From NCBI RefSeq assembly GCF_003003255.1, contig NZ_PVTD01000002.1, forward strand, positions 1 to 64,000: 64,000 nucleotides of DNA, written 5' to 3'. Both the position numbers and the translations under genes were made by a program. Shown in pieces: positions 6,593 through 39,461 of this stretch (the stretch's first letter is position 1; each line of letters opens with the position of its first letter). The stretch is from Aliiruegeria haliotis (GTDB lineage: Bacteria > Pseudomonadota > Alphaproteobacteria > Rhodobacterales > Rhodobacteraceae). A model generated the notes under the pieces. That model was not told where the DNA came from and searched no databases. It saw nothing but the letters and a program-made list of their open reading frames with translations.

Positions 6593-6808
6593 TCGCCTGT
6601 CTCCATCGTTGTGGTCGAGCCTGTGCGACCGGTTCTGACGGATCGGCTGGTGGTGACTGGCCTGCGCGAACTGGCCCGTGCGATCCTGCGCTTTTGTGGA
6701 GATTTGCCAGATCGGGTTTCTCGTGAGACCCTGTGCTCATCTCCGCTTCAGGGGTCGGGACCGGCGGCAAACGGTCTCAACAACACCGCCGGTCCCTGCC
6801 GCTGGGTA

Positions 6809-7045
6809 TCAAGCGGCGTTCTGTTGTGCCCTGAGGAGGTCTGCCCCGAGCACGAAATCCTTCGACTTGATCTTGGTGATGGTCAGCCCCCGGTCGAGCG
6901 CCCATGCGTTGAAGAGGGGCTGTGGCAGGCGCAGGAGGGCGGCACATTCCTTGCGGGAATAGTAGCTGTCCAAATTAATCCGGCCTGAGGTCGGCAGCAG
7001 GTCGTCGGGCGGGAGGATTTCGACTTTGCCGGTCATCTGGTTCAT
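6809..7045 (-). CDS. Small putative DNA-binding island protein, 78 aa
   Basis: A 78-residue protein. Residues 28-70 have the look of a short helix-turn-helix of the excisionase/MerR-like kind (Y-Y-S-R-K-E-C-A-A-L-L-R-L-P, then a turn and F-V-L-G-A-D-L-L-R). AGGAG lies about 6 bases upstream of the ATG on the coding strand. It belongs to the minus-strand island operon. The DNA-binding call is inference from the pattern only. Confidence 0.5.
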   Translation of the reverse strand: MNQMTGKVEILPPDDLLPTSGRINLDSYYSRKECAALLRLPQPLFNAWALDRGLTITKIKSKDFVLGADLLRAQQNAA

Positions 7046-7116
7046 GCTGCTTCTCCTTGTCTGTCTTGTTGGTCAGTCTGCGACGGATCAGTCTTAAGGT
7101 TCGACCCCACCGAACC

Positions 7117-7680
7117 TTAGTTTTTCTCGCCGTAGTCCCTGATGCGCCGACGCAGCAGGTCTGTGGCCCGCTCGGCGGCGGGCGTCATCTGGTCTCTACC
7201 GGGCGGAACCCAGTTCGCCATGGTCCGGGCTGCGGCCTGAACGCGCGCCTCACCTTCGCCGCCCTTGGTGGGCAGCCAGACGTGGGTCCACTGCTCGATA
7301 TCGGATATCCCCGCTGGCCAACCCTCGCTGGTCAGGACATCGGCGACCGCCTGACGCGCGGGTGTCGCCCTCTCACCATTGGCCCTGAGGACGACGACGG
7401 CGGCGAGTGCGTAAACCCTGACGGCAATCTCCGCGATCTTGAGGGTGCTCCCTCTGTCCGATGGCATCTGCAGTTCGGCCTGCAGTAAGATCAGCGGTTG
7501 CATCAGGTCGCTCAGTGCGAGGGCTGGGCTGGTCGAGTTCACGTAGTGGAGCATGTAGGCCAGTGCCAGCGAGCGGCGCTGACGCTCACTCATGTCCTGC
7601 CGCTTCAACCACTGCAGGCTGAGGACCAGTTCCATCATATCCAGATCGTGCCGGATGATCTCGGTCGGTTCGTTGCCCAT
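7117..7680 (-). CDS. Hypothetical island protein, 187 aa
   Basis: The chosen ATG at 7680 is preceded by GGAGGAGAG and overlaps the stop of the 50-residue upstream gene (TGATG), so the two are translationally coupled; the frame also stays open about 20 codons further. The product is mostly helical, with a segment from about residue 27 to 75 rich in Leu and Ala (S-L-A-L-A-Y-M-L-H-Y, L-M-Q-P-L-I-L-L-Q). No domain is recognised. Confidence 0.6.
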   Translation of the reverse strand: MGNEPTEIIRHDLDMMELVLSLQWLKRQDMSERQRRSLALAYMLHYVNSTSPALALSDLMQPLILLQAELQMPSDRGSTLKIAEIAVRVYALAAVVVLRANGERATPARQAVADVLTSEGWPAGISDIEQWTHVWLPTKGGEGEARVQAAARTMANWVPPGRDQMTPAAERATDLLRRRIRDYGEKN

Positions 7681-7832
7681 CACTCTCCTCCCACCAGCGC
7701 TCTCAACCGGGCGATGCTCGGTTCGACATGGCCGAACCACTCGCGGGTCAGGCGTTCGTTGTCGCCGATGAACTCGTCAATCTCGGACAGCCGGTCGAGC
7801 AAGAACCGGGCCTCTTTGGTGATCGCATCCAT
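7680..7832 (-). CDS. 50-residue small island protein
   Basis: An ATG at 7832 opens a 50-codon frame, rich in acidic and helical residues (A-R-F-L-L-D-R-L-S-E-I-D-E-F), that ends in a TGA sharing its A with the next ATG. Codon choice resembles its neighbours. The junction with the 187-residue gene and the lack of any competing frame support it as a real gene. Function unknown. Confidence 0.6.
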   Translation of the reverse strand: MDAITKEARFLLDRLSEIDEFIGDNERLTREWFGHVEPSIARLRALVGGE

Positions 7833-8046
7833 GTTGTTGGTCTCCGTTTTCAGTTCATCCTCGTGTGCGAGGAAATCCAGCGGCCATCAGGTCGACCTCC
7901 TGACCCGACCCTGCCGGGTATTTTCTCTTTCCGGGCAGGTCTGATCCCGCTAGTGAGGCTGTGCCCGGCTGCTTCTTCTGTGACGGTCGGGTGTGGTAGC
8001 TGGGTGTGGTAACCCGGCAAACACGCTGGGGGTGGTTCCCCGGCGG

Positions 8047-12797: not shown

Positions 12798-15268
12798 TCG
12801 TCGTCCTCGCTGGGTATCTCCGGGTTTGCATCTGGCTCGATGGGCGCGGTGGACGCGATCTCCGCCGCGGGGACCGGCACGGACCCGCCCCCCAGCGCCT
12901 CGGGATTGCGCAGCCAGATGTCGCGCTGCGCAAACGGAATCTCTATCCCGGCCTCGGCCAGCCGTTCGGCGATCCGGTGATTCAGCTCCGTCCGCGCGCC
13001 AAGGCCGAAGTTGATGTCACGCAGGATCACACGGATCTCGAAATCCAGCGAATCCGCACCGAACCCCTGGAACACGACCGTCGGCGGTGGATTGACGATG
13101 ACCAGCGGGTGTTCCTCGGCCACTTCCTGCAGAATCTCCGCAACCTTGCGGGTATCTGTGCCATAGGCAACGCCCACCGTCAGGATCAGGCGACCTGTCA
13201 GGCTGCCACGGGTCCAGTTGGTGACCTGTCCGGTGACAAGGTCGGAGTTGGGCACCACAACATTCGTGCGGTCGAAGGTCTCCACCGTTGTCGCCCGGAC
13301 CGAGATCTTTCGGACCGTGCCCATGACACTTCCGACCTCGATCCAGTCGCCCTCTGTCACCGGGCGCTCGATCAGCAGGATCAGACCCGAGACAAAGTTC
13401 TGCACGATGTTCTGGAGGCCGAAGCCGATCCCCACCGACAGCGCCCCGGCGACAATCGCGAGGTTTGAAAGGTCGAGACCGGCGACGGAGATGGCCACCA
13501 TGGCCGAGGCGAAGATGCCGACATAGCCGAGGCCGGAATCCACGGCGTTCCGCGCGCCCGGGTCCAGCGATGTGCGGGGCAGGACCGAACTGCGCATTGC
13601 GCCCTGAATGATCCGGGTCAGGAGGTAGCCGCCAAGGAACACGATCACGAAGATCATGAACACAGAGGGCGAGATACTTGTGTCGCCGACCTTGAACCCT
13701 TCGCGGACCGTCGCCCAGATCTCCGTCAGATCGGCCCAGCGCGCACCCCAGATCAACGCAAAAAACGGGAGCGACGCGATCATGATCGCGAAGTTGACAA
13801 GGACCGCCGCAAGCCCCGTGCCCGTGCGCCCTGCCGGGGCAAACATCTGGAACAGCCCCATCGAAAGCCGCTGAAGGAACGTCACAAGCGCGAGCAGCGC
13901 AATCGACAGACCCGGCGCGAGCGTCAGGGAGACCGCCGCGCGCGTATATCCGAGAACCGCCGCAATCGGACCCAGAAACGCGAGCACCAGGCAGATCCTG
14001 CCGACGATGTAGATCATGCTCTGCAGGAAGCCCCTTTCGTCCACCTCGTCCCGATCATCTTGTGTTTCGAACGCGTGCTGCTCGCCGCCGCTTGCGATCA
14101 GCAGGCGGGCGATCCCGGCGAGGCACAGCGCGGTCATGACAATGACCGGGAAAGCGAAGACAGCGCCCGTTGCTGTCCCCAGCGCAAACAGATCCGTCAA
14201 GTTGGAGATCAGGATCGCCAATGCGACCATGACGCCCAGAGAGTTGAAGTAGAACCGACCCCGGACGCGTTCACGCGGCGGGAGATCCAGCGTCCGCGGC
14301 CAGTTGTCCATCTTCGGGAAGGTCTGCCCGCCAAGCCAACGCGCACCGAAAAACGCCGCCCCCATGAATGGCAGGGTCAGCAGAATCTCTTCGCCGCTGG
14401 ACCCGAACATGGATGTCAGTTGGAGCGCGGCAACCAGAAAGGCGATCCCGATCATTGGCAAGAGCACCTGCCCCACCGAGATGATCATCGCCACGACAAA
14501 GAGCCGCTCGCTGCCGGGGCGGTTGGCCACCAGCCAGTCCACCAGCTTCTGAAACCAGCCCCGGCCACGGACCAGCAGCAGCCCGGCAAGCGCGACGAGG
14601 ATGGCAATACTGGGCAGGTTGTCCAGAAACAGGACCCTGTCACTGCGCAGGTTCAACGAGGACGACACCTCGCCGATCAGGATGCGTACGATCATCCGGG
14701 CATCTTCGAGCGCCTTGACGACATGTGTCGGGTTCACCGGGGAAGGGCCGCGTTCCAGCATACGCTGTTGCTGGCGCTCCCGGAGCAGGTGATCGACCTG
14801 CGAAATCAGGCCGCTGGCGCGGGCATGCGCCTCGATCGCGAGGAGTACGGGCTTTCGAAGCGTCTGGTATTGCGCGTTCAGTTCGGCACGGCGGTCGGAC
14901 AGATCCACGCTTTCGGCTTGGCCTTCCGCCGGCGTACCGAGTGAGGCTATCTGCGCCTCAAGCGTTTCGATACGGTCGGAGTTTCGTCCCTGCTCCGCCT
15001 GGAACAGGCTGCGCCAGTCTACCAGTTCGGTGCGTAACTCCTCGAAGGCTTGATTGGAGGCCTTCGCGTCGTCCAGCGCCCGCTCGGCTCGGCGCGCGGT
15101 GCGTTCCCAGGCCTCGAAATCCTCTTCCGTCAGTGGCGCCTGCGCGTCCTGCGCGTGGGCTGCTGCCGGGCCTAGGTGCAACGGCGCGGTACCCGGCCCC
15201 GCAGGCAAGCTCCCCAGGACAGAGAGCGCCAGGGCAAGCACCAGCAGCCGGGACAGGAGCCAATGCAT
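12794..15268 (-). CDS. Large MscS-family mechanosensitive channel with DUF3772 region
   Basis: An 824-residue inner-membrane protein. It has a signal peptide (residues 1-38), a periplasmic, partly coiled-coil region to about 170 (DUF3772-like), some ten or eleven membrane helices from about 205 to 640, and a C-terminal MscS domain. The pore-lining helix region G-A-L-S-V-G-I-G-F-G-L-Q-N-I is seen, followed by G-D-W-I-E-V-G and T-N-V-V-V-P-N-S. Such channels release solutes on hypo-osmotic shock. It starts 3 bases after the cysK stop and ends in an ATGA overlap with alaX. Large MscS relatives are common in proteobacteria, so the exact role is open. Confidence 0.9.
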   Translation of the reverse strand: MHWLLSRLLVLALALSVLGSLPAGPGTAPLHLGPAAAHAQDAQAPLTEEDFEAWERTARRAERALDDAKASNQAFEELRTELVDWRSLFQAEQGRNSDRIETLEAQIASLGTPAEGQAESVDLSDRRAELNAQYQTLRKPVLLAIEAHARASGLISQVDHLLRERQQQRMLERGPSPVNPTHVVKALEDARMIVRILIGEVSSSLNLRSDRVLFLDNLPSIAILVALAGLLLVRGRGWFQKLVDWLVANRPGSERLFVVAMIISVGQVLLPMIGIAFLVAALQLTSMFGSSGEEILLTLPFMGAAFFGARWLGGQTFPKMDNWPRTLDLPPRERVRGRFYFNSLGVMVALAILISNLTDLFALGTATGAVFAFPVIVMTALCLAGIARLLIASGGEQHAFETQDDRDEVDERGFLQSMIYIVGRICLVLAFLGPIAAVLGYTRAAVSLTLAPGLSIALLALVTFLQRLSMGLFQMFAPAGRTGTGLAAVLVNFAIMIASLPFFALIWGARWADLTEIWATVREGFKVGDTSISPSVFMIFVIVFLGGYLLTRIIQGAMRSSVLPRTSLDPGARNAVDSGLGYVGIFASAMVAISVAGLDLSNLAIVAGALSVGIGFGLQNIVQNFVSGLILLIERPVTEGDWIEVGSVMGTVRKISVRATTVETFDRTNVVVPNSDLVTGQVTNWTRGSLTGRLILTVGVAYGTDTRKVAEILQEVAEEHPLVIVNPPPTVVFQGFGADSLDFEIRVILRDINFGLGARTELNHRIAERLAEAGIEIPFAQRDIWLRNPEALGGGSVPVPAAEIASTAPIEPDANPEIPSEDDE

Positions 15269-25496: not shown

Positions 25497-26474
25497 CTAC
25501 CCGCTGCCGATCAGGATCCCCGCCGCCAGGACAAGACCGCCGCCGAGAACGACCTGCAACGCGGCTCTCCAGAAAGGTGTCTGCATGAACCGGTTCTGGA
25601 TCCAGGCGATAGCCCACAGCTCGATGAACACGACGACCACCGCGATCGTGGTCGCGGTCCAGAAATCCGGGATCAGGTAGGGCAAGGCATGGCCCAACCC
25701 GCCAAGCGTCGTCATCACGCCGGACGCAATCCCCCGTTTGACCGGGCTGCCCCGGCCCGACAATTCACCGTCGTCGGAGGCAGCCTCCGTGAAGCCCATG
25801 GAGATCCCGGCGCCGACCGAGGCCGCAAGTCCGACCAGGAATGTGCTCCATGTGTCGCCAGTAGCAAAGGCCGCCGCGAAGATCGGCGCAAGGGTCGACA
25901 CCGAGCCATCCATCAACCCGGCAAGCCCCGGCTGCACCCAGGTCAGGATGAACTGGCGCCGCTCGTGGTGGTCTTCCTCTGCGAGGGCCTCGTCGGTCAG
26001 GTGAAGCTGTGCCAACTCACCTGCCCTTTTCTCATGTCCGGCTTCCGCCGCGGCCAGATCCCCCAGCAGGCGCCGCGTTTCCGCGTCCGTCACACGGGTT
26101 GCGGCCTTTTCGTAGAAACTGCGGGATTCGTACTCCATCTCCGACAGGATCTCCCGAACCCGCGACAATGACAGTTGATCGAGCAGCCATTCCGGCTTCC
26201 GGTCGTAGAATCCGGCAACGTGGGCGCGGCGTATGAGTGGAATGGACTGGCCGAAACGGATTCGGTAGAGCGCAATCAGGCTCTGGCGATGCCGGTCTTC
26301 CTCCGCCGCCATGTCCATGAACATCGCCGCCGTAGACGGATAGTCCTTTTGCAGGCGCGCCGCGAAATTGCGGTAGATCCGCCCGTCGTCTTCCTCCGAA
26401 GAAATTGCAAGCGCGAGGATTTCCGCCTCCGAAAGATCACGGAAATGCATCTTGTTCGACAGGAATGCGGGCAT
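25497..26474 (-). CDS. mbfA: Membrane-bound ferritin-like iron exporter MbfA
   Basis: A 325-residue fusion. Residues 1-150 form a ferritin-like four-helix domain with iron ligands in S-S-E-E-D-D, M-A-A-E-E-D-R-H, M-E-Y-E-S-R-S-F and E-A-G-H-E-K. Residues 165-325 are a VIT1/CCC1-type membrane domain starting G-L-A-G-L-M-D-G-S-V-S-T-L-A-P. In rhizobia MbfA exports iron and protects against iron and peroxide stress, and is controlled by Irr. The start at 26474 follows GAGG at six bases. I could not see a certain Irr box upstream. Confidence 0.93.
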   Translation of the reverse strand: MPAFLSNKMHFRDLSEAEILALAISSEEDDGRIYRNFAARLQKDYPSTAAMFMDMAAEEDRHRQSLIALYRIRFGQSIPLIRRAHVAGFYDRKPEWLLDQLSLSRVREILSEMEYESRSFYEKAATRVTDAETRRLLGDLAAAEAGHEKRAGELAQLHLTDEALAEEDHHERRQFILTWVQPGLAGLMDGSVSTLAPIFAAAFATGDTWSTFLVGLAASVGAGISMGFTEAASDDGELSGRGSPVKRGIASGVMTTLGGLGHALPYLIPDFWTATTIAVVVVFIELWAIAWIQNRFMQTPFWRAALQVVLGGGLVLAAGILIGSG

Positions 26475-26988
26475 GGAGACCTCACCCAAAGCTGTGTTTG
26501 AAATACACCTACAAAATGGATGCGCAGAAGAAAACGCTACCTGTTGCCGCTTGAACCGCGCCGACAATGCGCCTAGATTTGATATGTTCCCTCGGGAACT
26601 ATGGCGATAAACGCGCTCGTAATAAGCGGCTCGGACCCGGGGGCGGTACCCGGCGGCTCCACCAAACATCCCTTGTTGGGGGATCATGGGGCCGAAATAG
26701 GATCGACGGACGTCTAAAGGGGTTAGCTTTCGCTCGGTGAGGTACCACCGTTACCGGTCCGTTATGCATAATTGCCAACAACAATCATGCTCCGGTGGCC
26801 GTCGCTGCTTAATGCAGTTGACCAAAACCGAAATTTAAGCCCAGTCCTCTAGCAAGGGCTGGCGGGGTTCGCAGGCACCTGGCAACAGAAGCCTGCACTA
26901 CTCCCCACAAGCGATAGTTTTCATTGACTTAGTAAACTAGATAGCTGGTGCAATCGGACCATTTGCAGACCCGGACCCCAGCTAGTCG
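26475..26988. other. Gap upstream of mbfA with no gene seen
   Basis: AT-richer intergenic DNA that holds the mbfA promoter. Only short frames without recognisable features occur. It borders the IS-scarred region to the right. Confidence 0.5.
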
Positions 26989-29419: not shown

Positions 29420-29469
29420 GTGCGATCGGGGCACCTGACCGGAAGCGCCATTCACCTGCAATCTCGAAA

Positions 29470-29830
29470 AAAATCTCGTTGCTGGAAGTGCAAACAACGC
29501 TCGAGCGTTGGTCCCGTCTCACTCCGACGCCTGCACAGGGCGCTGTAGTTCGGCACCGGCCAGTCGAGGCCGATCAATCTCAACAGGTTGCCGACGAACA
29601 CGCCTCGCCAATGATTCTCGGACCAGTGGCGCTCCCATGGCTCAATCTGGCGCAAGGCCATCCCGTACAAGACCTTCATCGTTGGACAAGTCTGAACCGC
29701 GGCGTCGGCGTATGTCTTCTGTCGACCGAGGTTGCCAGTCGGCAAGGCACCCCACGACATCTCGAGGTCGAACAAGGTTGTTGGAGATCCGCGCTCAACA
29801 AGTTCGCTCGCCATTGTGCTCGAACCAAGC
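29470..29830 (-). pseudogene. IS5-family transposase remnant, N-terminal part
   Basis: The minus strand encodes the first part of an IS5-type transposase: L-F-D-L-E-M-S-W-G, G-R-Q-K-T-Y-A-D-A-A-V-Q-T-C, M-K-V-L-Y-G-M-A-L-R-Q, then L-L-R-L-I-G-L-D-W-P-V-P-N-Y-S-A-L. An insertion of about a dozen residues after L-R-Q and an early stop make it inactive. It complements the C-terminal fragment at 27228-27625 in orientation, so both could come from one split element. Confidence 0.75.
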
Positions 29831-30138
29831 GTTCTCTGAGGGCAGGTACGAACCCGGAACGCCAGTGCTGGTCGCATCCGATCGTCTGGCCCGATCCGAT
29901 CGAGTTCGAGAACTGCACCACGGAGCCCATCATGCTTTCGTCCAGTTGCGCGGACGTGTTGTACACGATCAGTTCCCTGACCTCGATCCCCGGATCATAG
30001 ACCGCCTTCAAGGCGTCGCCCGGGCGGAAACAGCCTTGGCGCGAGAGACGGATTGTCTGGCTCCGATCCGAGTTGTACGCTCACCTTGGAAACCCGGCGT
30101 GCTGATTGTTGCCCGCCTGGCTGGCGGAGTTTTGAGTT
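29831..30138. other. Region upstream of the HMGR operon, no gene seen
   Basis: About 308 bases between the IS5-type remnant and the HMGR start. It should contain the operon promoter; no convincing -35/-10 pair or operator palindrome was found. A minus-strand frame crossing it has no recognisable motif. Confidence 0.4.
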
Positions 30139-31410
30139 TTGATTGTCCCGAACCATGTACTCGAAATGCTCAAACGGGTGCGTGCGTTGTATTATCAGGA
30201 TGGCCGCGAAACCCGCATGCTGCCCGACGATGCGGCGCATTCCCCGTTCCGCGGCGCGCAATCGGCTTCGGCGGCATCGATCACCGGGTTGTGGGAAGCG
30301 CTGCGCAACCAGGGCAAGGCCCGGGGGCGAAGCCAGTCCATTCTGGCGGATCCCGAGACGCTGGCGAATGCCGAGACCTACTCCGGCAATATCGAGAACA
30401 TGATCGGCACCGTGAAGGTGCCCGTCGGTGTGGTGGGGCCGCTGCGCGTGCGGGGTCTGCATGCCGATGGCGACTTTCATCTGCCGCTGGCCACGACCGA
30501 GGCTGCACTTGTCGCGTCCTACGGGCGCGGGGCCCTCGCCGCCACACGGTCCGGCGGCATCAGCACCGCGGTTCTCTATGAAGGCGTGCTCCGGTCCCCG
30601 GCTTTCGTCTTCGACAGCCTGTTGAACGCGGGGCGTTTCGTCGACTGGGTGGTCACACAGGTCGACGACCTGCGCGCCGCGGCCGAGGCAACAACCGCCC
30701 ACGGTCGGCTCGTCTCGCTGGAGCCGATCATCGACAACAATGTCGTGTTCCTGCTCTGCCGCTTTACGACCGGCGAGGCGGCCGGACAGAACATGGTGAC
30801 CATCGCAACCGATGCCCTTTGCAGGAAGGCCGTTGACGATTGCCCTGCCAAACCGCTGCGATGGTATGTCGAGGGCAATTTCTCCGGCGACAAGAAGGCG
30901 ACATCGCTCGGGACGCTGACCGGGCGCGGGCGCAAGGTCAGCGCCTCGGTGACACTGCCCGAGCAGGTTGTGCAAAAGGTGCTGCGGACGGACATCGACG
31001 CGATGCTGGACTATGGTCGGGTCGCGGGGCTTGGTGCGCTGCTCTCAGGCCAGTTCGGAGCTCAGGCCCACTATGCCAACGCGCTGGCAGCCTTCTATAT
31101 CGCCACCGGCCAGGACGCCGCCTGCGTGGCCGAGAGCGCGGTGGGGTTTACGCGGATCGAACGCCGCGAGGACGGCCTGTTCTGCTCTGTCACCTTGCCG
31201 AATATCCTCGTAGGAACGGTCGGCGGGGGGACCGCATTGCCAAGCCAACGCGCCGCACGAAGTCTTCTCGGCCTCGAGGGGCCGGGCAGCGCGGCGGCGC
31301 TGGCAGAGGTCACCGCGGCGCTCTGCCTGTGTGGAGAGATATCCATCGTGGCCGCCATGTCCGCTGGCCATTTCACCTCTGCCCACCGCAAGCTGGCCCG
31401 CACGCGATGA
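30139..31410 (+). CDS. Divergent class I HMG-CoA reductase
   Basis: A 423-residue homologue of 3-hydroxy-3-methylglutaryl-CoA reductase, which makes mevalonate. The class I features are N-M-I-G-T-V-K-V-P-V-G near residue 87, G-R-G-R-K-V near 262 and G-T-V-G-G-G-T-A-L-P-S-Q. All four catalytic residues are present: E121 (A-T-T-E-A-A-L-V), K252 (G-D-K-K-A-T), D326 (T-G-Q-D-A-A) and H416 (S-A-H-R-K-L). The dinucleotide-site motif, D-A-M-G-M-N in classical enzymes, reads E-A-A-G-Q-N (213-218), a marked change. The start is TTG at 30139 with GGCGGAG upstream, or ATG at 30166. Its stop overlaps the next start (ATGA). No other mevalonate-pathway gene is nearby. Confidence 0.88.
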   Translation: MIVPNHVLEMLKRVRALYYQDGRETRMLPDDAAHSPFRGAQSASAASITGLWEALRNQGKARGRSQSILADPETLANAETYSGNIENMIGTVKVPVGVVGPLRVRGLHADGDFHLPLATTEAALVASYGRGALAATRSGGISTAVLYEGVLRSPAFVFDSLLNAGRFVDWVVTQVDDLRAAAEATTAHGRLVSLEPIIDNNVVFLLCRFTTGEAAGQNMVTIATDALCRKAVDDCPAKPLRWYVEGNFSGDKKATSLGTLTGRGRKVSASVTLPEQVVQKVLRTDIDAMLDYGRVAGLGALLSGQFGAQAHYANALAAFYIATGQDAACVAESAVGFTRIERREDGLFCSVTLPNILVGTVGGGTALPSQRAARSLLGLEGPGSAAALAEVTAALCLCGEISIVAAMSAGHFTSAHRKLARTR

Positions 31411-32321
31411 GCACGGGGCTGGCACGGCGTCTCTGGATCTATCAGGCGGAACGGTTCCCACTCGCCCGAACGGTGCCCCTGCTTGCGGTCTTCTCCGCCG
31501 CAAGCATCAATGTCTCGGCGATGCTCTCAGGACGTCCGCTGCCCGGTCCCCTCGCCTACCTGGTCGCGGCACTGCTGGCGCTCGGCATCTTCTTCCAGAT
31601 GCGGGCCTGCGACGAGGCCAAGGATCTGGAGGACGACCGCCGCTATCGCCCGGAACGCCCCATCCCGCGCGGATTGGTGAGCCTTCGCACCGTGCTCGCG
31701 CTCGCGGCGGGCGTGGGAATCGGGATGCTGGCACTCGCATGGTCGTGGAACATGGCGACGCTGGGCTTGCTGTGCCTGAGTTGGGGCTGGCTGGCCCTGA
31801 TGACGGTCGAGTTCGGCGTGCCGGACTGGCTCAAGGCACGCCCGATGACCTACCTCCTGAGCCACATGCTGATCATGCCGCTGATCGACCTGCTGCTGAC
31901 CGGGATCGAGTGGACCGCAGCCGGGGCAACGCCCTCCCCGGCGCTCGGACTGTTCCTTGCGTTGAGTTTCGTCAATGGCTGTGTGCTGGAGATCGGCCGA
32001 AAGGTCTGGGCACCGGTGAACGAGCGCGACGGCGTGGAGACCTATTCCGCGCTTTGGGGGCCCCAGCGTGCGGCGCTGATCTGGTTGGCAACCGTAGTCG
32101 TGGGCTTTCTCCTGTTGGCCGCTCTCGGGCGGGCGCTTGGCGCTGCCGTGGCCGTCACAACCGTCGGCGGGATCGGGGTTGTGATGGTCGGCATGTGCGC
32201 GATGCGGTTCCGGGCCAATCCTGATCCGGTTTGGCAAGGGCGCGTGGACATGGCCTCCGGGCTTTGGGTACTGGTGTGTTATCTTGCGGCCGGTTTCCTT
32301 CCCCTGGCATTCGGAAGGTAA
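31407..32321 (+). CDS. UbiA-family prenyltransferase-like membrane protein
   Basis: A 304-residue membrane protein with about eight or nine helices. Two acidic motifs, as in UbiA enzymes, lie at residues 66-77 (R-A-C-D-E-A-K-D-L-E-D-D) and around 200-215 (E-I-G-R-K-V-W-A-P, N-E-R-D-G-V-E-T-Y-S). These normally bind prenyl diphosphate through Mg2+. The proteins transfer prenyl chains to aromatic rings, hemes, chlorophyllides or glycerol phosphates; the acceptor here is unknown. It overlaps the HMGR gene by four bases and precedes the dikinase gene by three. Confidence 0.8.
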   Translation: MSTGLARRLWIYQAERFPLARTVPLLAVFSAASINVSAMLSGRPLPGPLAYLVAALLALGIFFQMRACDEAKDLEDDRRYRPERPIPRGLVSLRTVLALAAGVGIGMLALAWSWNMATLGLLCLSWGWLALMTVEFGVPDWLKARPMTYLLSHMLIMPLIDLLLTGIEWTAAGATPSPALGLFLALSFVNGCVLEIGRKVWAPVNERDGVETYSALWGPQRAALIWLATVVVGFLLLAALGRALGAAVAVTTVGGIGVVMVGMCAMRFRANPDPVWQGRVDMASGLWVLVCYLAAGFLPLAFGR

Positions 32322-32324
32322 AAC

Positions 32325-34781
32325 ATGAATCTTGTCTTGCAATCCACTGAAATAACGCTGGAAACCGCAGGCGGAAAAGGTGCTTCCCTGCACCGGCTTG
32401 CGGCTGCCGGTTTCGACGTTCCGGCCTTCTTCGTGGTCTCGGCAGAGGCATGCAGGCACCACGATGGTCGCGTCGTCCCGCAGCCATACCTGGCGGCGGC
32501 CCTCTCGAATGCACTCGACCAACTGGGGCCCGGCCCCTACGCGGTGCGGTCCTCCGGTCGGGCCGAGGATGGTGCGGCTCACAGCCACGCCGGGCAGTTC
32601 CAGACACGGCTCGACGTGCCTGCCTCCGGCGTCGGGGCAGCAATTGCAGATGTCTGGGCATCGGGGTTTTCCGAGGCGCTGGACAGGTACCGGGAGGCAA
32701 CGAATGCAGCCCCGGCCGAGGCGCCAGCGATCATCGTGCAACAAATGGTGCCGGCCCGTGCCGCAGGCGTCGCCTTCTCCGCCGATCCGGTCACCGGCCT
32801 TCGGGACCGCCGGGTCATCTCGGCCATTTCCGGACTGGGCGAGGCGCTGGTCTCCGGCGAGGCCGACGGCGAGGACTGGCAGGTCGCCACCACCGGCGAC
32901 ATGCTCGCAAGCCCCACCGCGCCAACGGTCCTCACGACCGAGGAAGTCGTGGAGATCGCCGCCCTCGCCGCCCGCACGGAGGCGTTTTTCGGCACGCCAC
33001 AGGACATTGAGTGGGCGATTGACGACACCGGGCTTCACCTGTTGCAATCCCGCCCGATCACGACGCCGCTGCGCCCGCAACCGACGCCGGACAATACCCT
33101 GATCGTGCTCGACAATTCCAACATCGTGGAAAGCTACCCGGGCATTGTCAGCCCGCTCACCTACAGTTTTGCCTGTTTCGTCTACGGCCGAGTCTACCGG
33201 GCCTTCGTGGCGCTACTCGGGGTCGGCCCGGCCGAGGTCAACGCCAATGCGCCTGTCTTCGACAATCTGCTCGCGCGGGTTGACGGGCGGGTCTACTACA
33301 ACCTCGGCAACTGGTACCGTGCGCTGGCGCTGCTGCCCGGGTTTTCTCGCAATCGGGACCACATGGAAACCATGATGGGCGTCGACGAGCCGCTTCCGTC
33401 CGAGTTGCGCGACACCATCGGGCCGCCACCGGCCACCGGGATGAAACGGCTCGCCGAAGCGGTTCGAACCCTGCGCGTGACGGCGGGCCTCGGTTGGGCC
33501 GCCCTTCGCCTGCCGGTCACGAAACGGCGGTTCGAAACACGGCTGCAGACGGCACTTGCCACTGGCAAGGCGCCAGACCGCGCCAACCTCACTGAACTGG
33601 CCGCGACCTGGCGCGCCATCGAGGCAGACCTGCTCGACCGTTGGGATGCCCCCCTGATCAACGATTTCCTCTGCATGATGGCCTTCGGCGCCTCTCGCAA
33701 GCTGCTGGAGGCCTGGGCCGGACCAAAGGGCGTGGCGCTGCACAATGACGTCATGATCGGTCAGGGCGATATCGTCTCTGCCGAACCGTCAAGGCGGATC
33801 GCGGAGATGGGCCGGATGGTGGCCTCGGCCGGTCTGGCGGGTAATCTCGTCCGTGATGGCCGCGCGGCCCTCGCCGGGCATCCGGATATCGAAACGGCCT
33901 TCGACGCCTATATCGCGCGGTTCGGCGATCGGTGCACACAGGAGCTGAAGCTGGAATCGATCACACTGGACGAAGATCCGACGCAACTCCTTGCGGCGAT
34001 CGCGGCTAGCGCGGCGCGTCCCGCGGCCCCGGCGGCCGACCGTGCGGAGCCCGACTGGAACGCGGTGATACCCGACCGGCCGGGCCGGCGCCGGTTGGCG
34101 CGCTGGATCACCGGCTATGCGAGGGCCCGCGTGCGCGACCGGGAGAACTTGCGGTTCGAACGGACCCGCATCTTCGGCCACGCGCGGCGTGTGTTCCTCG
34201 CCATGGGGCGCGAATTCTGGGCCTGCGGACGGCTGGACGCGCCGCGGGACATTTTCCACCTGACCGTCGACGAGGTTCTGGGAGCGATCGAGGGCAATGC
34301 CCTGTCGACCGACCTTCGCGCGATTGTCGCGTCCCGCCAGGCGGACCACCGGCGGCACGAAGACCGGCCCGACCCGCCGGAACGGCTTGTCGGGCACGGG
34401 GCGGCGACGCTGGTGAGAACGCGCCCGGGCGAGGAACCGCCAGCCGAAACCGGCGATGCACGGATCGGCACCGGCTGCTCCGCCGGTCGCGTGACCGCGC
34501 CGGCACGGGTGGTCCGCGACCCTCGGGTGGAGCACCTCGCCTCCGGCGAGATCCTCGTCGCCCGAAACACCGATCCAGGCTGGATCGCCGTCTTTTCCAA
34601 TGCCGCAGCCATCGTCGTCGAACGCGGCTCGTTGCTGTCGCATTCCGCCATCGTCGCGCGGGAACTGGGCATTCCCTGCGTGGTCGGCATCAAGGGGGCG
34701 ACAGACTGGGTGCCTGACGGGGCCCGCCTGACGGTCGACGGGGAAACCGGAGAGGTTCGGCTGGCCGATGACACGCAATGA
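32325..34781 (+). CDS. PEP-synthase/rifampin-phosphotransferase-like dikinase
   Basis: An 818-residue protein. Residues 1-245 are a PPDK/PEP-synthase-type ATP-grasp domain (G-G-K-G-A-S-L-H-R-L near 17, V-R-S-S-G-R-A-E-D near 72, G-V-A-F-S-A-D-P-V-T-G near 147, L-L-Q-S-R-P-I near 240). A middle region of about 450 residues begins N-I-V-E-S-Y-P-G-I-V-S-P-L-T-Y. The C-terminal swivelling His domain has the phospho-histidine at H773 in L-L-S-H-S-A-I-V-A-R-E-L. Domain order and length match rifampin phosphotransferase, which uses ATP to phosphorylate a small-molecule hydroxyl. No PEP/pyruvate TIM-barrel domain is apparent, so the substrate is more likely an operon intermediate. The gene overlaps the next by 14 bases. 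Confidence 0.8.
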   Translation: MNLVLQSTEITLETAGGKGASLHRLAAAGFDVPAFFVVSAEACRHHDGRVVPQPYLAAALSNALDQLGPGPYAVRSSGRAEDGAAHSHAGQFQTRLDVPASGVGAAIADVWASGFSEALDRYREATNAAPAEAPAIIVQQMVPARAAGVAFSADPVTGLRDRRVISAISGLGEALVSGEADGEDWQVATTGDMLASPTAPTVLTTEEVVEIAALAARTEAFFGTPQDIEWAIDDTGLHLLQSRPITTPLRPQPTPDNTLIVLDNSNIVESYPGIVSPLTYSFACFVYGRVYRAFVALLGVGPAEVNANAPVFDNLLARVDGRVYYNLGNWYRALALLPGFSRNRDHMETMMGVDEPLPSELRDTIGPPPATGMKRLAEAVRTLRVTAGLGWAALRLPVTKRRFETRLQTALATGKAPDRANLTELAATWRAIEADLLDRWDAPLINDFLCMMAFGASRKLLEAWAGPKGVALHNDVMIGQGDIVSAEPSRRIAEMGRMVASAGLAGNLVRDGRAALAGHPDIETAFDAYIARFGDRCTQELKLESITLDEDPTQLLAAIAASAARPAAPAADRAEPDWNAVIPDRPGRRRLARWITGYARARVRDRENLRFERTRIFGHARRVFLAMGREFWACGRLDAPRDIFHLTVDEVLGAIEGNALSTDLRAIVASRQADHRRHEDRPDPPERLVGHGAATLVRTRPGEEPPAETGDARIGTGCSAGRVTAPARVVRDPRVEHLASGEILVARNTDPGWIAVFSNAAAIVVERGSLLSHSAIVARELGIPCVVGIKGATDWVPDGARLTVDGETGEVRLADDTQ

Positions 34782-35859
34782 CATAGCCGACCGCGCCCGT
34801 TTCGATATCATCCGATACGCCCAGCTCTGGGAGGATGCGGACGTTCTCGTCGCCGCGATGCACCCCGGATCCGGACAGCGCTTCCTGTCGGTCTGCTCAG
34901 CGGGTGACAACGCACTGGCGCTATTGACGCTGGACCCAGAAAAAGTCACGGCGGTCGATCTGTCGGTGGCGCAACTCGACTGCCTGCGCCTGCGGATCGG
35001 TGCCATGCGGGCGCTGGAGCAGCCGGAATTCCTCGAACTCATGGGATCACGTCCAAGCGACCGCCGCGGGGTGCTGCTCGACCGGGCGCTTGCCGAACTG
35101 CCCGAAGAGGCACGTCTGCGGTGGGGGAATCTGCGCCCCGAGGTCGTGGCCCACGGAGCGGGTGGCGTTGGCCGGTTCGAACGGTATTTCCGGATCTTCC
35201 GGAAACGGGTTCTGCCGCTGGTGCATTCGCGCCGAACCATCGACGATGTCTTTGTCGCGCGACCACCGGCCGAACGTGCGCGGTTCCTCGACGAGCGCTT
35301 CGTCACCTGGCGCTGGACGCTCATGCTGCAACTCTTTTTCTCTCGGTTCACAATGGGACGGATGGGCAGGGACAAGGCATTTTTCGATCATGTGGAGGGA
35401 TCGGTGGCCGAGCACGTGGCGCGCCGGATCCGCCACGCAGGCGTGACCTGCGACCCCGCGGAGAACCCGTACCTGCACTGGATCCTCAAGGGCGGACACG
35501 GCGCGGCGCTGCCTATGCCGTGGCGCCCGGAGCAATACGAGATCATCCGGAACAGGCTGGAGCGAGTGGAACTCGTGCATGGACCGCTGGAGGCCTGCGG
35601 CAACACGCCGGTCGATGGTTTCAACCTGTCGGACATCTTCGAGTACATGTCCCCCGCAGCCTCCGAAGCAGCCTATACGCAGCTTCTGGCCCGTGCGACG
35701 CCGGGCGCGCGGCTTGTCTATTGGAACATGATGGCGCCGCGCCGGGTGCCGGAAGCGCTGGCAGACAGGGTCACGACCCTCTCGGATCTGGAGGATACGC
35801 TCAAGCAACAGGACAAGGCCTTCTTCTACTCCGATTTCGTGATCGAGGCGGCGCGGTGA
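34768..35859 (+). CDS. DUF3419 protein, BtaA-like aminocarboxypropyl transferase
   Basis: A 363-residue member of the family that includes BtaA, which moves the 3-amino-3-carboxypropyl group of S-adenosylmethionine to diacylglycerol in betaine-lipid synthesis. The N-terminal part has Y-A-Q-L-W-E-D near 17 and the SAM pocket L-S-V-C-S-A-G-D-N-A-L-A-L-L near 40; the C-terminal D-G-F-N-L-S-D-I-F-E-Y-M-S-P (about 289-302) is a DUF3419 signature. A BtaB-type N-methyltransferase, needed for a betaine lipid, is missing in this operon. The acceptor may be different, for example an isoprenoid alcohol. Confidence 0.8.
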   Translation: MTRNDIADRARFDIIRYAQLWEDADVLVAAMHPGSGQRFLSVCSAGDNALALLTLDPEKVTAVDLSVAQLDCLRLRIGAMRALEQPEFLELMGSRPSDRRGVLLDRALAELPEEARLRWGNLRPEVVAHGAGGVGRFERYFRIFRKRVLPLVHSRRTIDDVFVARPPAERARFLDERFVTWRWTLMLQLFFSRFTMGRMGRDKAFFDHVEGSVAEHVARRIRHAGVTCDPAENPYLHWILKGGHGAALPMPWRPEQYEIIRNRLERVELVHGPLEACGNTPVDGFNLSDIFEYMSPAASEAAYTQLLARATPGARLVYWNMMAPRRVPEALADRVTTLSDLEDTLKQQDKAFFYSDFVIEAAR

Positions 35860-37190
35860 TGGCAGTGCTGGGACCAGTGGTGATGGCCGCCCTGTCGATC
35901 GCGGTGCTGCTGTGGGTCATGGCGCAGGTGCGCCGAAATGCGGAGGTGAACGGCTGGAGTGCCGAGGTGCAGCGCAAGATCATCCACGTTGCCACCGGAC
36001 TCTACGCAATCTGCCTGCCTATCCTGTTTGCGGAGGACTGGCCTGTCTATCTTCTGCTCGGCCTGACGGTCGTGGCGATGGCCGCGATGCGGCTGCCGGC
36101 ACTGCGCTCCAGTGGCGCGAGCGCCGCGCTGCATTCGGTCGACCGCCAGTCCTACGGGGATTTCCTGCTCGCGGCAGCGGTGGCGCTGGTCTTCCTGCTC
36201 AGCCACAGGGATCCGCTGCTCTACGTCCTGCCGCTCGCGGTCCTGACGCTGGGCGATGCCGCCGCGGCGCTGGCAGGCAGCGCCTATGGCAAGCGGTTCT
36301 TCGCTGTCGAGGACGGGCATAAGAGCCTTGAGGGCAGCGCCGTGCTGTTCCTGGTGACGGTGATCCTTTCGATGACCTGCCTGCTGCTGTTGTCGGAGAT
36401 CCCGCGCGTCAATGTCGTGATCCTTGCCTTCCTGATCGCGACCTTTTCCACGTTGGTTGAGGCCGACAGCTGGCGCGGTTTCGACAACCTGTTCCTGCCG
36501 CTCGCGGTGCTGATCATCCTGCGCGAGCACGCGACGGGCAGCACGATGGACCTGGCGATTCTGTTCACCACCTACCTCTGCGCACTGGTCCTGTTTCATG
36601 CAGCCGCCCGCCAGTTCGGCATGACCAACCATGTCGCGCGGGTCTACCTGGCGGCAATCTTCCTGTTGCTGTCGGTCACCGCCACGCAAAACGTCGTGTT
36701 TTGCGTTCTGATGTTGTTGCTGCACCTCGTGGCCGAGCGAAAGGCGCCCAGCGCCAGCGCACACCCCGAACTGGATGCGGTGACGACGCTGGCGGTGCTG
36801 AGTTTTGGCTGGCTGGCCGCAGGCAACGCGACGGGGTTCAACGCGCTTGACGCGTTCGGAGCGTGCCTTGCCGGGGTCTGCATGGGGCTGGCGATGCTGG
36901 CAATGTCAGGTGAAAGCGTCCGGCTGCGCATGGCGGTCTTCCTCGGGCTTGGCCTCGCGATGCCGCCGCTCTGGATCTGGCTGATGGGCTTCAACCCGCC
37001 GGAGAAACACTGGATTCCCCGGGCCGGGTGGATCATGGCTGCCAATGTCGGGCTGGTGGGTCTTGCCACGCTTTCCCGGCCCGCCGCCTTTGGCCGCCAC
37101 CGAATGACCCGGATCGGCGCGCTGGCTGTCCTGGCGCCGGCGTTTGCCTATGCCACATACGCCGCAACTTTCGAGGGAGGATTGCCGTGA
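35859..37190 (+). CDS. Dolichol/phytol-kinase-like membrane protein
   Basis: A 443-residue integral membrane protein with some twelve or more hydrophobic helices. The N-terminal half matches CTP-dependent polyprenol kinases and cytidylyltransferase-like proteins: E-V-Q-R-K-I-I-H-V-A-T-G-L near residue 35 and L-G-D-A-A-A-A-L-A-G-S-A-Y-G-K near 130, followed by D-G-H-K-S-L-E-G-S near 153. The C-terminal half adds further helices not typical of short phytol kinases. The ATG shares one base with the stop of the DUF3419 gene. A lipid alcohol is the likely substrate; this is inference from the family. Confidence 0.75.
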   Translation: MAVLGPVVMAALSIAVLLWVMAQVRRNAEVNGWSAEVQRKIIHVATGLYAICLPILFAEDWPVYLLLGLTVVAMAAMRLPALRSSGASAALHSVDRQSYGDFLLAAAVALVFLLSHRDPLLYVLPLAVLTLGDAAAALAGSAYGKRFFAVEDGHKSLEGSAVLFLVTVILSMTCLLLLSEIPRVNVVILAFLIATFSTLVEADSWRGFDNLFLPLAVLIILREHATGSTMDLAILFTTYLCALVLFHAAARQFGMTNHVARVYLAAIFLLLSVTATQNVVFCVLMLLLHLVAERKAPSASAHPELDAVTTLAVLSFGWLAAGNATGFNALDAFGACLAGVCMGLAMLAMSGESVRLRMAVFLGLGLAMPPLWIWLMGFNPPEKHWIPRAGWIMAANVGLVGLATLSRPAAFGRHRMTRIGALAVLAPAFAYATYAATFEGGLP

Positions 37191-38035
37191 CACAGGCCTT
37201 CAACCAAGGAACTGCCAGCGTGACGTTGTTTCCCGAAGCACCGGACTGGGACGGTGCGCCGACGATGGCCTTGGGCAAGTTCACCTGCAAGTCGGCCGAG
37301 GATGGCGCGACGGTTCTGACCGAGGCAAGCGAAGCGGCCCGCCGCGCGGGCGCCCGCAGACTCCTCGGTCCTATGGACGGCACAACATGGAACAGCTACC
37401 GGCTGGTGATCGAAAGCGACGGCTCCGCGCCATTCCTGATGGAACCGACCTCCGGCCCGTCGGACATTGCGGCCTTCGAGGGGGCCGGGTTTGCCCCGAT
37501 CGCCCGGTATTTCTCCGCCGGGGTCGCGCTCGCCGACATGCGCAACCCACCTCCCGGGGAGACCGACATAGAGGTCGCGCCGTGGGACGGCACCGACCCG
37601 GAGGCGCATTTCTCGCAGGTCTACGACCTGTCCCTTTCAGCCTTTGCGGGCAATGCCTTCTACACGCCGATCTCGCGCGAGGCCTTTCTGGGCATGTACC
37701 TCCCCTACGTGCCGGTTCTCCGAAAGGAGTTCGTCCTGTTTGCCCGCAACGCCCGGGGCAGCCTCGTGGGATTTCTCTTCGGCATTCCGAACTACGCGGC
37801 CGGTCCGAGCCCGGATGCGGTCATCCTCAAGACCTACGCCAGCCTGCAACATGGCGCCGGGCAGGCACTGGCGCACGCCTTTCACCACGCGGCGCTTGAT
37901 GCCGGTTTCACAACGGCGATCCATGCGCTGATCCACGAGACGAATACCTCCGCACAGCGAAGCGCACAGCTGGGTGCCCATGTGTTCCGTCGCTATGCAC
38001 TGATGGGAAGGCGGCTCGATGACGACGCTGGTTGA
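37187..38035 (+). CDS. GNAT-like acyltransferase
   Basis: A 282-residue protein that starts with GTG at 37187, overlapping the preceding stop (GTGA) and preceded by GGGAGGA. Repeated beta-alpha patterns and A-R-N-A-R-G-S-L-V-G-F-L-F-G near residue 185 followed by a helix after L-K-T-Y-A-S-L-Q-H-G-A-G resemble the acyl-CoA-binding half of GNAT enzymes. The N-terminal A-x-x-R-R-L-L-G-P-M-D-G-T-T-W segment also occurs in GNAT-related proteins. It might acylate the amine of an aminocarboxypropyl product, but no direct evidence supports this. Confidence 0.6.
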   Translation: MTQAFNQGTASVTLFPEAPDWDGAPTMALGKFTCKSAEDGATVLTEASEAARRAGARRLLGPMDGTTWNSYRLVIESDGSAPFLMEPTSGPSDIAAFEGAGFAPIARYFSAGVALADMRNPPPGETDIEVAPWDGTDPEAHFSQVYDLSLSAFAGNAFYTPISREAFLGMYLPYVPVLRKEFVLFARNARGSLVGFLFGIPNYAAGPSPDAVILKTYASLQHGAGQALAHAFHHAALDAGFTTAIHALIHETNTSAQRSAQLGAHVFRRYALMGRRLDDDAG

Positions 38036-39461
38036 GGCCTTCGCTGCGAGGGTGGCCCACAGCCCCGACGCCCCGGCGATCCTCGATCCCTCGGGCGACG
38101 TCACGACCTATGCCGCGCTCGACCGCCGCTCCTCCGCTTTCGCAGCGCGGCTCGGGTCCCGTGGTTTGCAAAAGGGGGACCGGGTTTTGGTGGCCGCGCC
38201 CGTCACCGCAGATCTCTACGTGATCCTGGCCGGGATCTGGAAAGCAGGGCTGGTGGCGGTTTTTCCCGAACCGGCGATGGGTCTGCAGGGGTTACTGCAT
38301 GCCGTGCGCACGACCCGCCCTGCGGCGCTCGCCACTGCGGGGCCCTACTGGTTGCTACGCCTGTTGCCCGTGCTCTGGCGTGTGGCCTTGCTGAGAGTTG
38401 AACATGCCGGGCCGGAGACCTGCCGCCCTGTCGATCTCGAGCCCGGCGACCCGGCACTGATTTCCTTCACCTCCGGGTCCAGCGGCGTGCCCAAGGGCAT
38501 CCAGCGCAGTCACGGCTTCCTGATGGCACAGAACGCGGCCGTGGCGCCGCTGCTCGCCTCGGATCGGCCGGAGCGCGATCTTGTCGGGTTCCCGGTCTTC
38601 GTGCTGGTCAACCTTGCAGCCGGGCGCTGCTCCGTTCTGCCCAACTGGCCCCTGACCCATCAGGACCGTGCGGACGCAGGGGCACTCCGCGCGTGGATGA
38701 TCCGAAGCGGCGCGAACCGCCTTCTGCTCCCGCCTTCGATCTGCGAAACGCTGGCGCAAACCGGCGTGCCGCCGCAGGTCACGACGATCTTCACCGGTGG
38801 CGGGCCCGTCTTCCCCGATACCATCCAGCGCCTTTTGGCGGGACGGCCGGACCTGCGGATTGTGGCGGTCTATGGCTCGACCGAGGCCGAACCGATTGCG
38901 GAGATCGGGACGGAGGCGATTTCCGACGCCGACTGGGCCGAGATGGAGGCCGGCGGCGGGCTCCTTGCCGGTCCCCCGGTGCCCGGCATCGCGCTGCGCC
39001 TCGTGGACGGAGAGATTCAGGTCGCCGGAGAGCACGTCAACAACGGCTATATCGACCCGGCACAGGATGCGGGCCGGAAGATCCACGAAGACGGGCGCGT
39101 CTGGCACCGGACCGGCGATGCCGCTCGGCTCGACGACCGGGGGCGGCTGTGGCTTCTGGGCCGATGGCAAGAAGGGGGGCTCTCGCACCCGATGCCGCTT
39201 CAAGTGGAAACCGCGGCCCGCCACTGGCCCGGGGTGCGCCGGGCGGCGCTTGTCCGCCAGCACAGCAAGCCTGACGTGCTGGCAATCGAGGGCGACCCGC
39301 ACCAGATCGAAGACTGGCGCCGGACCGCCCGGGCGCATGGCGTGGACCGGGTCGTGTGTGTCGAGCACATCCCCATGGACCGGCGACACGCTTCCAAGGT
39401 TGACGAAAACCGACTCCGCCGTCGGCTCGCACGTCAGATCGGGACCGGCGGAGCGGCATAG
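38019..39461 (+). CDS. AMP-forming acyl/aryl-CoA ligase-like enzyme
   Basis: A 480-residue ANL-superfamily adenylating enzyme. The phosphate loop T-S-G-S-S-G-V-P-K-G is at 151-160, the Y-G-S-T-E-A-E-P motif near 287, W-H-R-T-G-D-A-A-R-L near 363, and the C-terminal catalytic lysine is K460 in H-A-S-K-V-D. It activates a carboxylic acid as acyl-AMP and may pass it to CoA or another acceptor. It overlaps the GNAT gene by 17 bases and ends the seven-gene operon. No acyl carrier protein gene is in the operon. Confidence 0.85.
   Translation: MTTLVEAFAARVAHSPDAPAILDPSGDVTTYAALDRRSSAFAARLGSRGLQKGDRVLVAAPVTADLYVILAGIWKAGLVAVFPEPAMGLQGLLHAVRTTRPAALATAGPYWLLRLLPVLWRVALLRVEHAGPETCRPVDLEPGDPALISFTSGSSGVPKGIQRSHGFLMAQNAAVAPLLASDRPERDLVGFPVFVLVNLAAGRCSVLPNWPLTHQDRADAGALRAWMIRSGANRLLLPPSICETLAQTGVPPQVTTIFTGGGPVFPDTIQRLLAGRPDLRIVAVYGSTEAEPIAEIGTEAISDADWAEMEAGGGLLAGPPVPGIALRLVDGEIQVAGEHVNNGYIDPAQDAGRKIHEDGRVWHRTGDAARLDDRGRLWLLGRWQEGGLSHPMPLQVETAARHWPGVRRAALVRQHSKPDVLAIEGDPHQIEDWRRTARAHGVDRVVCVEHIPMDRRHASKVDENRLRRRLARQIGTGGAA

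Follow-up and report, generated by a model that had tools for sequence, protein, structure and literature searches.

The synthesis of the betaine lipid DGTS by btaA/btaB makes use of a DUF3419 SAM:aminocarboxypropyl transferase, and the operon described here likewise contains one; however, it has no conserved BtaB and carries six further conserved genes, and 5 of 34 genomes that contain its transferase (gene B) hold a BtaA-like gene as well. With the class I HMG-CoA reductase of the mevalonate pathway the operon shares, in its gene H, a fold and catalytic residues, but the pocket residues 684 and 735 are replaced in H. In the salvage of phytol to tocopherol (VTE5/VTE6 plus HPT) a VTE5-like kinase stands beside a UbiA prenyltransferase, as is probably so in the operon, whereas genes H, P, B, G and L have no counterpart there; most hosts of the operon are not known as phytol makers. 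The dikinase-type P shares an ATP-binding and a swivelling His domain with the 5fbs/5hv2 group and with PigC/RedH, also without the PEP/pyruvate domain, but scores far below the curated cut-offs of these families. Archaeal-type ether lipid synthesis has bacterial forms (PMC7852524). The prenyltransferase U of the operon is weakly similar to DGGGP synthase (4.7e-4), and one locus, L088, encodes a fusion of CarS with an archaetidylserine-synthase-like protein; yet CarS was seen in L088 only (search with the L088 protein), and the operon adds a reductase, a dikinase, B, G and L. No published pathway using these seven genes, or their enzymes together, was among the matches listed in PMC full text, a scope that leaves subscription papers and preprints outside, in line with the original prediction that no such pathway is known; within that scope DUF3419 is named in four papers only.

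The window, a stretch of 64,000 nucleotides from Aliiruegeria haliotis, carries at positions 30139-39461 seven tightly packed open frames on the + strand, named H, U, P, B, K, G and L. Calculated from the coordinates, the junctions from H to L are an overlap of 4 bases, a gap of 3 and overlaps of 14, 1, 4 and 17, which confirms all those given when seven same-strand genes were predicted here. H starts with TTG at 30139, the next in-frame ATG lying at 30166, and conservation of the peptide encoded before that ATG in the three relatives compared, L009, L010 and L011, supports the TTG start. A single truncated DDE transposase (29452..29877, - strand) lies at the left border of the operon and corresponds to the IS remnants noted before.

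Other loci were gathered using the U protein as sole seed, and 80 were kept from 91 relatives. U (31407..32321, +) is a UbiA-family integral membrane prenyltransferase, with a match to UbiA (PF01040) of 37.6 bits over a cut-off of 34.2, conserved motifs DExKDxxxD, RPxRPxPRG and EIGRK, and invariant D69, D73 and D77 (25 sequences). P (32325..34781, +), which accompanies U in 80 of 81 loci, is a phosphohistidine dikinase-type phosphotransferase composed of an ATP-binding domain and a swivelling His domain: PPDK_N and PEP-utilizers were the only domains found at 1e-3, and at this threshold Pfam detected no PEP/pyruvate-binding C-terminal domain of the PEP synthase/PPDK kind. Its motif ErGSlLSHsAIVaRE is conserved in 72 sequences including that of the window, with the His present in at least 95 percent. 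The closest solved relatives of P are the PDB 5fbs/5hv2 group, titled phosphoenolpyruvate synthase, which we take to be rifampin phosphotransferases.

K (35859..37190, +) is a polytopic membrane protein and probably a member of the dolichol/phytol-kinase-like CTP superfamily. The protein of the window had no Pfam match at 1e-3 and no Pfam or NCBIfam family above cut-off, with only DUF1206 below it (17.7 bits, cut-off 26.2), and PDB profile searches with B and K returned nothing at 0.1. DUF92 matched one of 24 K members (6.3e-5), the fold gave a weak match to CdsA, and the K profile matched short kinase-like proteins of cyanobacteria. K carries an extra C-terminal membrane domain. G (37187..38035, +, GTG start) is assigned as a tandem-GNAT acyltransferase. 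The G of the window had no Pfam match at 1e-3 and no NCBIfam family above cut-off; Acetyltransf_1 matched 14 of 23 G members, a PDB profile search with G gave weak GNAT matches only, and the fold is that of GNAT, in two halves. L (38019..39461, +) is an AMP-forming acyl/aminoacyl ligase, PRK09274/OleC-like, which matches AMP-binding with 129 bits and, as a single sequence, had no PDB match at 1e-20. In L055, L063 and L077 both G and L precede H, and beside L056 neither is present; the two would act as a pair.

We consider it somewhat better than evenly probable that the seven genes encode a complete pathway, spread by horizontal transfer, to a membrane lipid not yet described, with H and K on an alcohol branch; the product we propose, predicted from the gene families, is an exported, prenylated, aminocarboxypropyl-bearing, acylated and phosphorylated lipid. 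U would prenylate a polar acceptor, P would phosphorylate an intermediate and B would transfer the 3-amino-3-carboxypropyl group from SAM, a link between P and B being drawn because the two are joined in locus L075 in a single ORF of 1185 residues. Through the G/L pair an acid would be activated and then used in an acylation, probably of the new amine. The presence of both groups, aminocarboxypropyl and acyl, in one product is predicted only from the families to which B, G and L belong, and the genome sequence searched for the divergent locus L088 has no B match. H has probably been repurposed as a reductase of acyl-CoA to alcohol that supplies a kinase: it would reduce an acyl-CoA other than HMG-CoA to an alcohol, in a four-electron reduction, and this alcohol would be phosphorylated by K or, in L088, by the kinase domain fused to H. 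The connection between H and a kinase is drawn from L088, where H and an APH/EcKL kinase form one fusion and the genome sequence has no K match. Strict coupling of H to K itself was rejected, since locus L083 contains K without H. The finished lipid would be exported, in some hosts by the MMPL transporter of the cluster, and in some hosts it may be further oxidised and sulfated. Export and a head group enter the proposal because an MMPL gene occurs in 5 of 81 loci and because, in L088, the fusion of PssA/archaetidylserine synthase with CarS directly follows L; queried with the L088 protein, the other loci yielded no further copy.

Alternatively, H and K could make the donor of U. In tocopherol synthesis, phytol kinase and HPT act in sequence, and on this model H would form an allylic alcohol by reducing an acyl-CoA of the isoprenoid or 2-enoyl kind, K would phosphorylate the alcohol and U would transfer the chain. 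This would agree with the cyanobacterial loci L052, L085 and L086, where H and K are missing together, while short VTE5-like kinases are encoded elsewhere in all six cyanobacterial genomes searched (the three sequences inspected have no Pfam or NCBIfam family above cut-off). Loss of H and K in the Calothrix clade is likely because the clade is nested beside a locus bearing both, and the nearest solved relatives of U include chlorophyll synthase, a weak match (3.6e-4). However, ordinary prenyl diphosphates should be available in the hosts anyway (DXR was found in 31 of the 34 operon-bearing genomes), the near-constant partner of U is P and not a second K-like kinase, L083 has K but no H, and the CarS/PssA-like fusion of L088 suggests a phosphate in the head group. 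We regard this role of H and K as possible but unlikely.

H (30139..31410, +) is an enzyme of the class I HMG-CoA reductase fold, and thus resembles the target of statins, and matches Pfam HMG-CoA_red (PF00368) with 348 bits. We aligned the window copy with those of 66 of the 70 H-matching loci, excluding ORFs of 330 aa or fewer or of 1000 aa or more. The catalytic E559, K691, D767 and H866 (human numbering) are invariant in all 67 copies; in the same 67, Ser at position 684 is replaced by Glu and Lys at position 735 is lost (A38 S23 G4 T1 F1), the window having E and A, respectively. Nineteen further copies, from 19 of 20 family stretches (the fetched L135 stretch had no H within it), all have E at 684 and A at 735, although one copy is gapped at E559; L123 and L010 seem to be one genome, and the overlap of the other family genomes with the U-seeded loci was left in. 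Residues 684 and 735 belong to the HMG-binding site, according to PMC7503714. Thus H keeps the catalytic set while its acyl pocket has changed. In one reading, which we hold to be rather unlikely, the operon would make a new class of phospholipid with a polar amino-alcohol derived from methionine: B would aminocarboxypropylate a prenylated carrier, and the carboxylate would be activated and reduced by H, whose invariant Glu684 would recognise an ammonium in place of the carboxylate bound by HMG-CoA reductase. G would then N-acylate and K would phosphorylate. If true, a ceramide-phosphate-like, prenyl-chained membrane lipid would have spread among bacteria as a mobile cassette.

H could also be a true HMG-CoA reductase that makes mevalonate, with HMG-CoA derived from leucine breakdown, and so raises the isoprenoid supply for U. 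The Pfam score, the complete catalytic set, the prenyltransferase next to H and the HMG-site residues Lys692, Asp690 and Asn755, kept in H apart from one X, are compatible with this. But the changes at 684 and 735 are found in every aligned copy, the score against the NCBIfam equivalog TIGR00533 is 305.2 bits, under its cut-off of 441.8, and the conserved unit contains no mevalonate-kinase gene. Moreover, genome searches spanning 34 operon-bearing genomes (L055 left out) matched HMG-CoA synthase in none of them and DXR in the 31 mentioned. An HMGR-family gene was found in 31 of the 34, in more than one copy in two only, where the additional copy is in each case of the TIGR00532 type, above cut-off. 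In a Coxiellaceae genome, itself among those without a synthase match and the sole bearing genome seen with mevalonate genes, the second copy sits amid these genes, away from the operon. We therefore find a mevalonate-forming H improbable. The earlier description of H as an isoprenoid precursor enzyme is thus doubtful.

B (34768..35859, +), a DUF3419 (BtaA-related) SAM aminocarboxypropyl transferase, matches DUF3419 with 171.7 bits (cut-off 28.2). Its match to DUF3419/BtaA would allow a variant of DGTS synthesis, in which diacylglyceryl homoserine is the product of B and is then modified by the remaining genes. However, no methyltransferase (BtaB) is found among the seven conserved genes, and diacylglycerol would require neither U nor H. 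Operon B proteins score 166-249 bits (two broken pieces in G416 excluded), whereas the second, BtaA-like copies found elsewhere in the five genomes mentioned reach 357-379 bits; the conserved motifs differ, and B forms a subfamily distinct from BtaA. A betaine-lipid variant is thus quite improbable. In L070 a methyltransferase that falls below every family cut-off follows L.

For the conservation of the whole set, a gene was counted as carried when it matched with at least 35 bits, intactness aside. All seven genes were matched in 59 of the 80 loci, in eight named phyla, and in 45 of the 50 loci flanked by 1.5 kb or more of sequence on each side; in 8 of these 45, the matches of at least one gene are split over more than one ORF piece. 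A 46th well-flanked locus is L075, with P and B joined in one ORF. Locus L082 is clearly broken. Gene order is HUPBKGL in 55 of the 59 full loci and GLHUPBK in three; the order LHUPBKG read in L015 arises from a second AMP-binding ORF upstream. In L058, L068 and L072 an AMP-binding/ACP/reductase gene lies between P and B; it was dropped as evidence for a replacement of H because it runs opposite to the operon and was seen in one clade only. Pairwise gene-tree distances, over the 39 loci with all seven genes usable, correlate with r of 0.87-0.96, and when two halves are taken separately the median is 0.90 in one (lowest pair 0.69) and 0.76 in the other (lowest pair 0.59), whereas label shuffles gave a mean of about 0 and a maximum of 0.38. 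The flanks are non-recurrent, their commonest family being present at only 8 of 81 loci. Most of the seven families are common on their own, but with this completeness, this order and these correlations, neighbours brought together by chance or hitch-hiking with no common product are hardly credible. To judge from their sequences, the seven genes are inherited as a unit; the co-occurrence in distant genomes, proposed beforehand as a test of the original prediction, was observed, and the genes form one unit, as predicted.

The distribution of the operon is patchy; Paracoccus amoyensis (L012) and Thioclava indica (L015) are among its carriers. It is present in 21 of 394 genomes of its family, its insertion sites differ within the genus and in one case it is on a plasmid. 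Together with the gene tree, drawn from 67 loci, the patchiness and the differing sites uphold the proposed lateral acquisition, and a horizontally mobile, self-contained pathway cassette is part of our best explanation. No clean empty site could be shown within the genus because, in the relatives, matches to the right-flank genes FabD and GST are on separate contigs or widely spaced, and two GST regions from relatives have nothing else of at least 80 bases in common with the window.

That all seven genes occur in eight named phyla and move as one cassette implies that their lipid, so far undescribed, is useful, and provides concrete genes for lipidomics. Among class I HMG-CoA reductases, the operon points to a branch acting on another substrate; this would alter how annotations of HMG-CoA reductase are read in bacteria that use the MEP pathway.

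The seven genes lie on the + strand of the window as open frames from 30139 to 39461, in the order H (HMGR-like), U (UbiA), P (dikinase), B (DUF3419), K (kinase-like membrane protein), G (GNAT) and L (AMP-binding ligase). Their coordinates bear out the original prediction of seven same-strand genes, joined successively by an overlap of 4 bases, a gap of 3 and overlaps of 14, 1, 4 and 17 bases. That H begins with the TTG at 30139 is backed by conservation of its N-terminus among the three relatives compared. The predicted families agree with the domain matches (HMG-CoA_red, UbiA, PPDK_N plus PEP-utilizers, DUF3419 and AMP-binding), while K, which is polytopic, and G, which is soluble, matched no family model in the window. 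The insertion sequence remnant noted on the left is a truncated DDE transposase at the operon border (29452-29877). Since operon GC (0.654-0.680 in 2-kb steps) falls inside the upper range of the window, composition gives no mark of foreign origin. Elsewhere in the window (25497-26687, - strand) a rubrerythrin domain is fused to a VIT1 membrane domain.

The UbiA protein served as the sole query against 84,980 species genomes, in a pattern search whose yield is a lower bound. UbiA relatives were encoded in 91 stretches, 80 of which were retained as loci (L009-L088), and the window proteins, then profiles, were run on the ORFs of 81 loci (these 80 and L008). Relatives were found for HMGR in 70, UbiA in 81, the dikinase in 80, DUF3419 in 73, the kinase in 65, GNAT in 69 and the ligase in 66; the commonest flanking family, unlike the seven operon genes, was seen in only 8 of the 81. 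Of the 80 loci, 50 extend at least 1.5 kb beyond the block on both sides (hereafter well-flanked), and 45 of these matched all seven genes. In 8 of the 45 the matches to some gene are spread over two or more ORF pieces, and L082 is clearly broken. Among all 80, many of them clipped by contig ends, 59 had the full set: 44 from Pseudomonadota, 7 from Verrucomicrobiota, 2 from Thermodesulfobacteriota, one each from Deinococcota, Acidobacteriota, Vulcanimicrobiota, Planctomycetota and Gemmatimonadota, and one without a phylum name. Gene order is H-U-P-B-K-G-L in 55 of these and G-L-H-U-P-B-K in 3. Tree distances among the seven genes correlate at 0.87-0.96 (39 loci), with medians of 0.90 and 0.76 inside two halves of the loci, against a label-shuffled control with a mean near zero and a maximum of 0.38. 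The original observation of seven genes in one unit is right, and stronger than first made.

Some loci are incomplete or rearranged. Among the well-flanked ones, P and B are merged into a single ORF of 1185 residues in L075, where K is split into several pieces; H and K are missing from L052, H, K and L from L085 and L086, and G and L from L056. G and L stand together ahead of H in L055, L063 and L077. None of the six cyanobacterial loci, nor the single Bacillota locus, has all seven genes; of the cyanobacterial loci, the three that allow a judgement lack both H and K. Three loci of Calothrix-type genomes that have no H, L058 (14467-17565), L068 and L072, encode on the reverse strand, between P and B, a protein with AMP-binding, ACP and thioester reductase domains. 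Upstream of U, six cyanobacterial loci (L052, 7350-9538, and five others) share a radical SAM/SPASM protein and a membrane protein without a family match.

H can be aligned to solved class I HMGR enzymes (human numbering). Glu559, Lys691, Asp767 and His866, named as catalytic in the review PMC7503714, are invariant in the window and 66 loci, as are Asp690 and Asn755. Ser684 and Lys735, which the same review places among the residues forming the HMG site, are replaced in 67/67 copies, the former by Glu and the latter by Ala (38), Ser (23), Gly (4), Thr (1) or Phe (1). Further H copies from the host's own family have Glu at 684 and Ala at 735 in 19/19 (one apparently from the same genome as L010), and archaeal and Arabidopsis reference HMGRs have Ser and Lys. 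H has therefore probably kept its chemistry, thioester to alcohol, on an acyl group other than HMG.

The gene content of the hosts agrees in the main with such a non-HMG role, and the original reading of H as an isoprenoid precursor enzyme is probably wrong. HMG-CoA synthase gave no match in 34/34 operon-bearing genomes searched. DXR was found in 31/34, the exceptions being one Taklimakanibacter, one Devosia and one MAG; DXR also exists in an alternative form, type II (PMC3847144). An HMGR-family gene was present in 31/34; just two of these genomes have a second copy, in each case of TIGR00532 type and above cut-off. The second copy of a Coxiellaceae genome (L122) lies among genes for an IPP isomerase and a diphosphomevalonate decarboxylase (both above cut-offs), an FPP synthase (above a subfamily cut-off) and two mevalonate-kinase-like proteins that score below the cut-offs of their families. 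This genome contains DXR and yielded no match to HMG-CoA synthase, so either the search for the synthase can overlook it or the mevalonate pathway of this genome is incomplete.

Connections between steps come from the shared P-B ORF of L075, the G-L pairing in L055, L063 and L077, the joint absence of H and K in cyanobacterial loci, and L088, an Oleispira (gammaproteobacterial) MAG in whose available genome sequence K and B gave no match. In L088 domain matches show H (5091-7910) with an N-terminal extension of ~155 residues and fused at its C-terminus to an APH/EcKL-type kinase. Directly after L lies a fusion of PssA/archaetidylserine-synthase-like and CDP-archaeol-synthase (CarS)-like domains (13517-14725), each below its family cut-off, followed by a GGDEF gene and, by reading of peptides, an Rnf operon. 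The two fusions suggest phosphorylation of the alcohol from H, with the phosphate then able to anchor a head group. An MMPL transporter gene lies upstream in L088, and an MMPL gene lies between P and B in L051, L078, L079 and L081. In 7/81 loci, from alpha- and gammaproteobacteria (L012, 6228-8668; L013, L015, L029, L031, L073 and L076), H is directly preceded by a divergent sulfotransferase and cytochrome P450 pair, which likely tailors the operon product.

The lateral acquisition suggested in the original prediction is supported. U is patchily placed: it occurs in 21/394 genomes of the host's family and 1/398 of a phylum sample (own genome included in the former, the only one in the latter). 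It was matched in 6/385 of a class sample; only two of these look like members, the host itself and G184 (at 31% identity, neighboured by P, B and G). The window and L009, a relative at 81%, are homologous from 30140 to 39430 and no further, and homology to the genus mate G783 is likewise limited to the operon. One copy is carried by a Roseinatronobacter plasmid of 137 kb, classed as non-mobilizable, in which H spans the start of the record. A quick U+P+B tree needs at least five changes for Pseudomonadota, counting starred branches. In it Calothrix and a Muproteobacteria MAG come out as sisters (100, starred), as do the MAGs of a Deinococcota and an Ectothiorhodospiraceae member (90, not starred); MAG labels may be wrong.

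The original prediction knew of no described pathway with this gene set, and a literature search aimed at it likewise gave none. The sequence speaks directly for the family chemistry of U, B, P, G and L and for the kept catalysis and changed pocket of H; we infer the substrates, the order of steps, the link from H to K and the lipid nature of the product. The main alternative concerns H and K, which might make the prenyl donor, consistent with their joint loss in cyanobacteria having their own phytol-type kinases, or the polar end of the lipid, to which the H-kinase fusion and the CarS-like domain of L088 point. In the proposed mechanism U would prenylate, P would transfer phosphate, B would add an aminocarboxypropyl group, L and G would activate and attach an acyl group, and H would reduce an acyl-CoA to an alcohol that K would phosphorylate. 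The operon enzymes would in this way assemble a membrane-bound lipid, which would be exported once finished.
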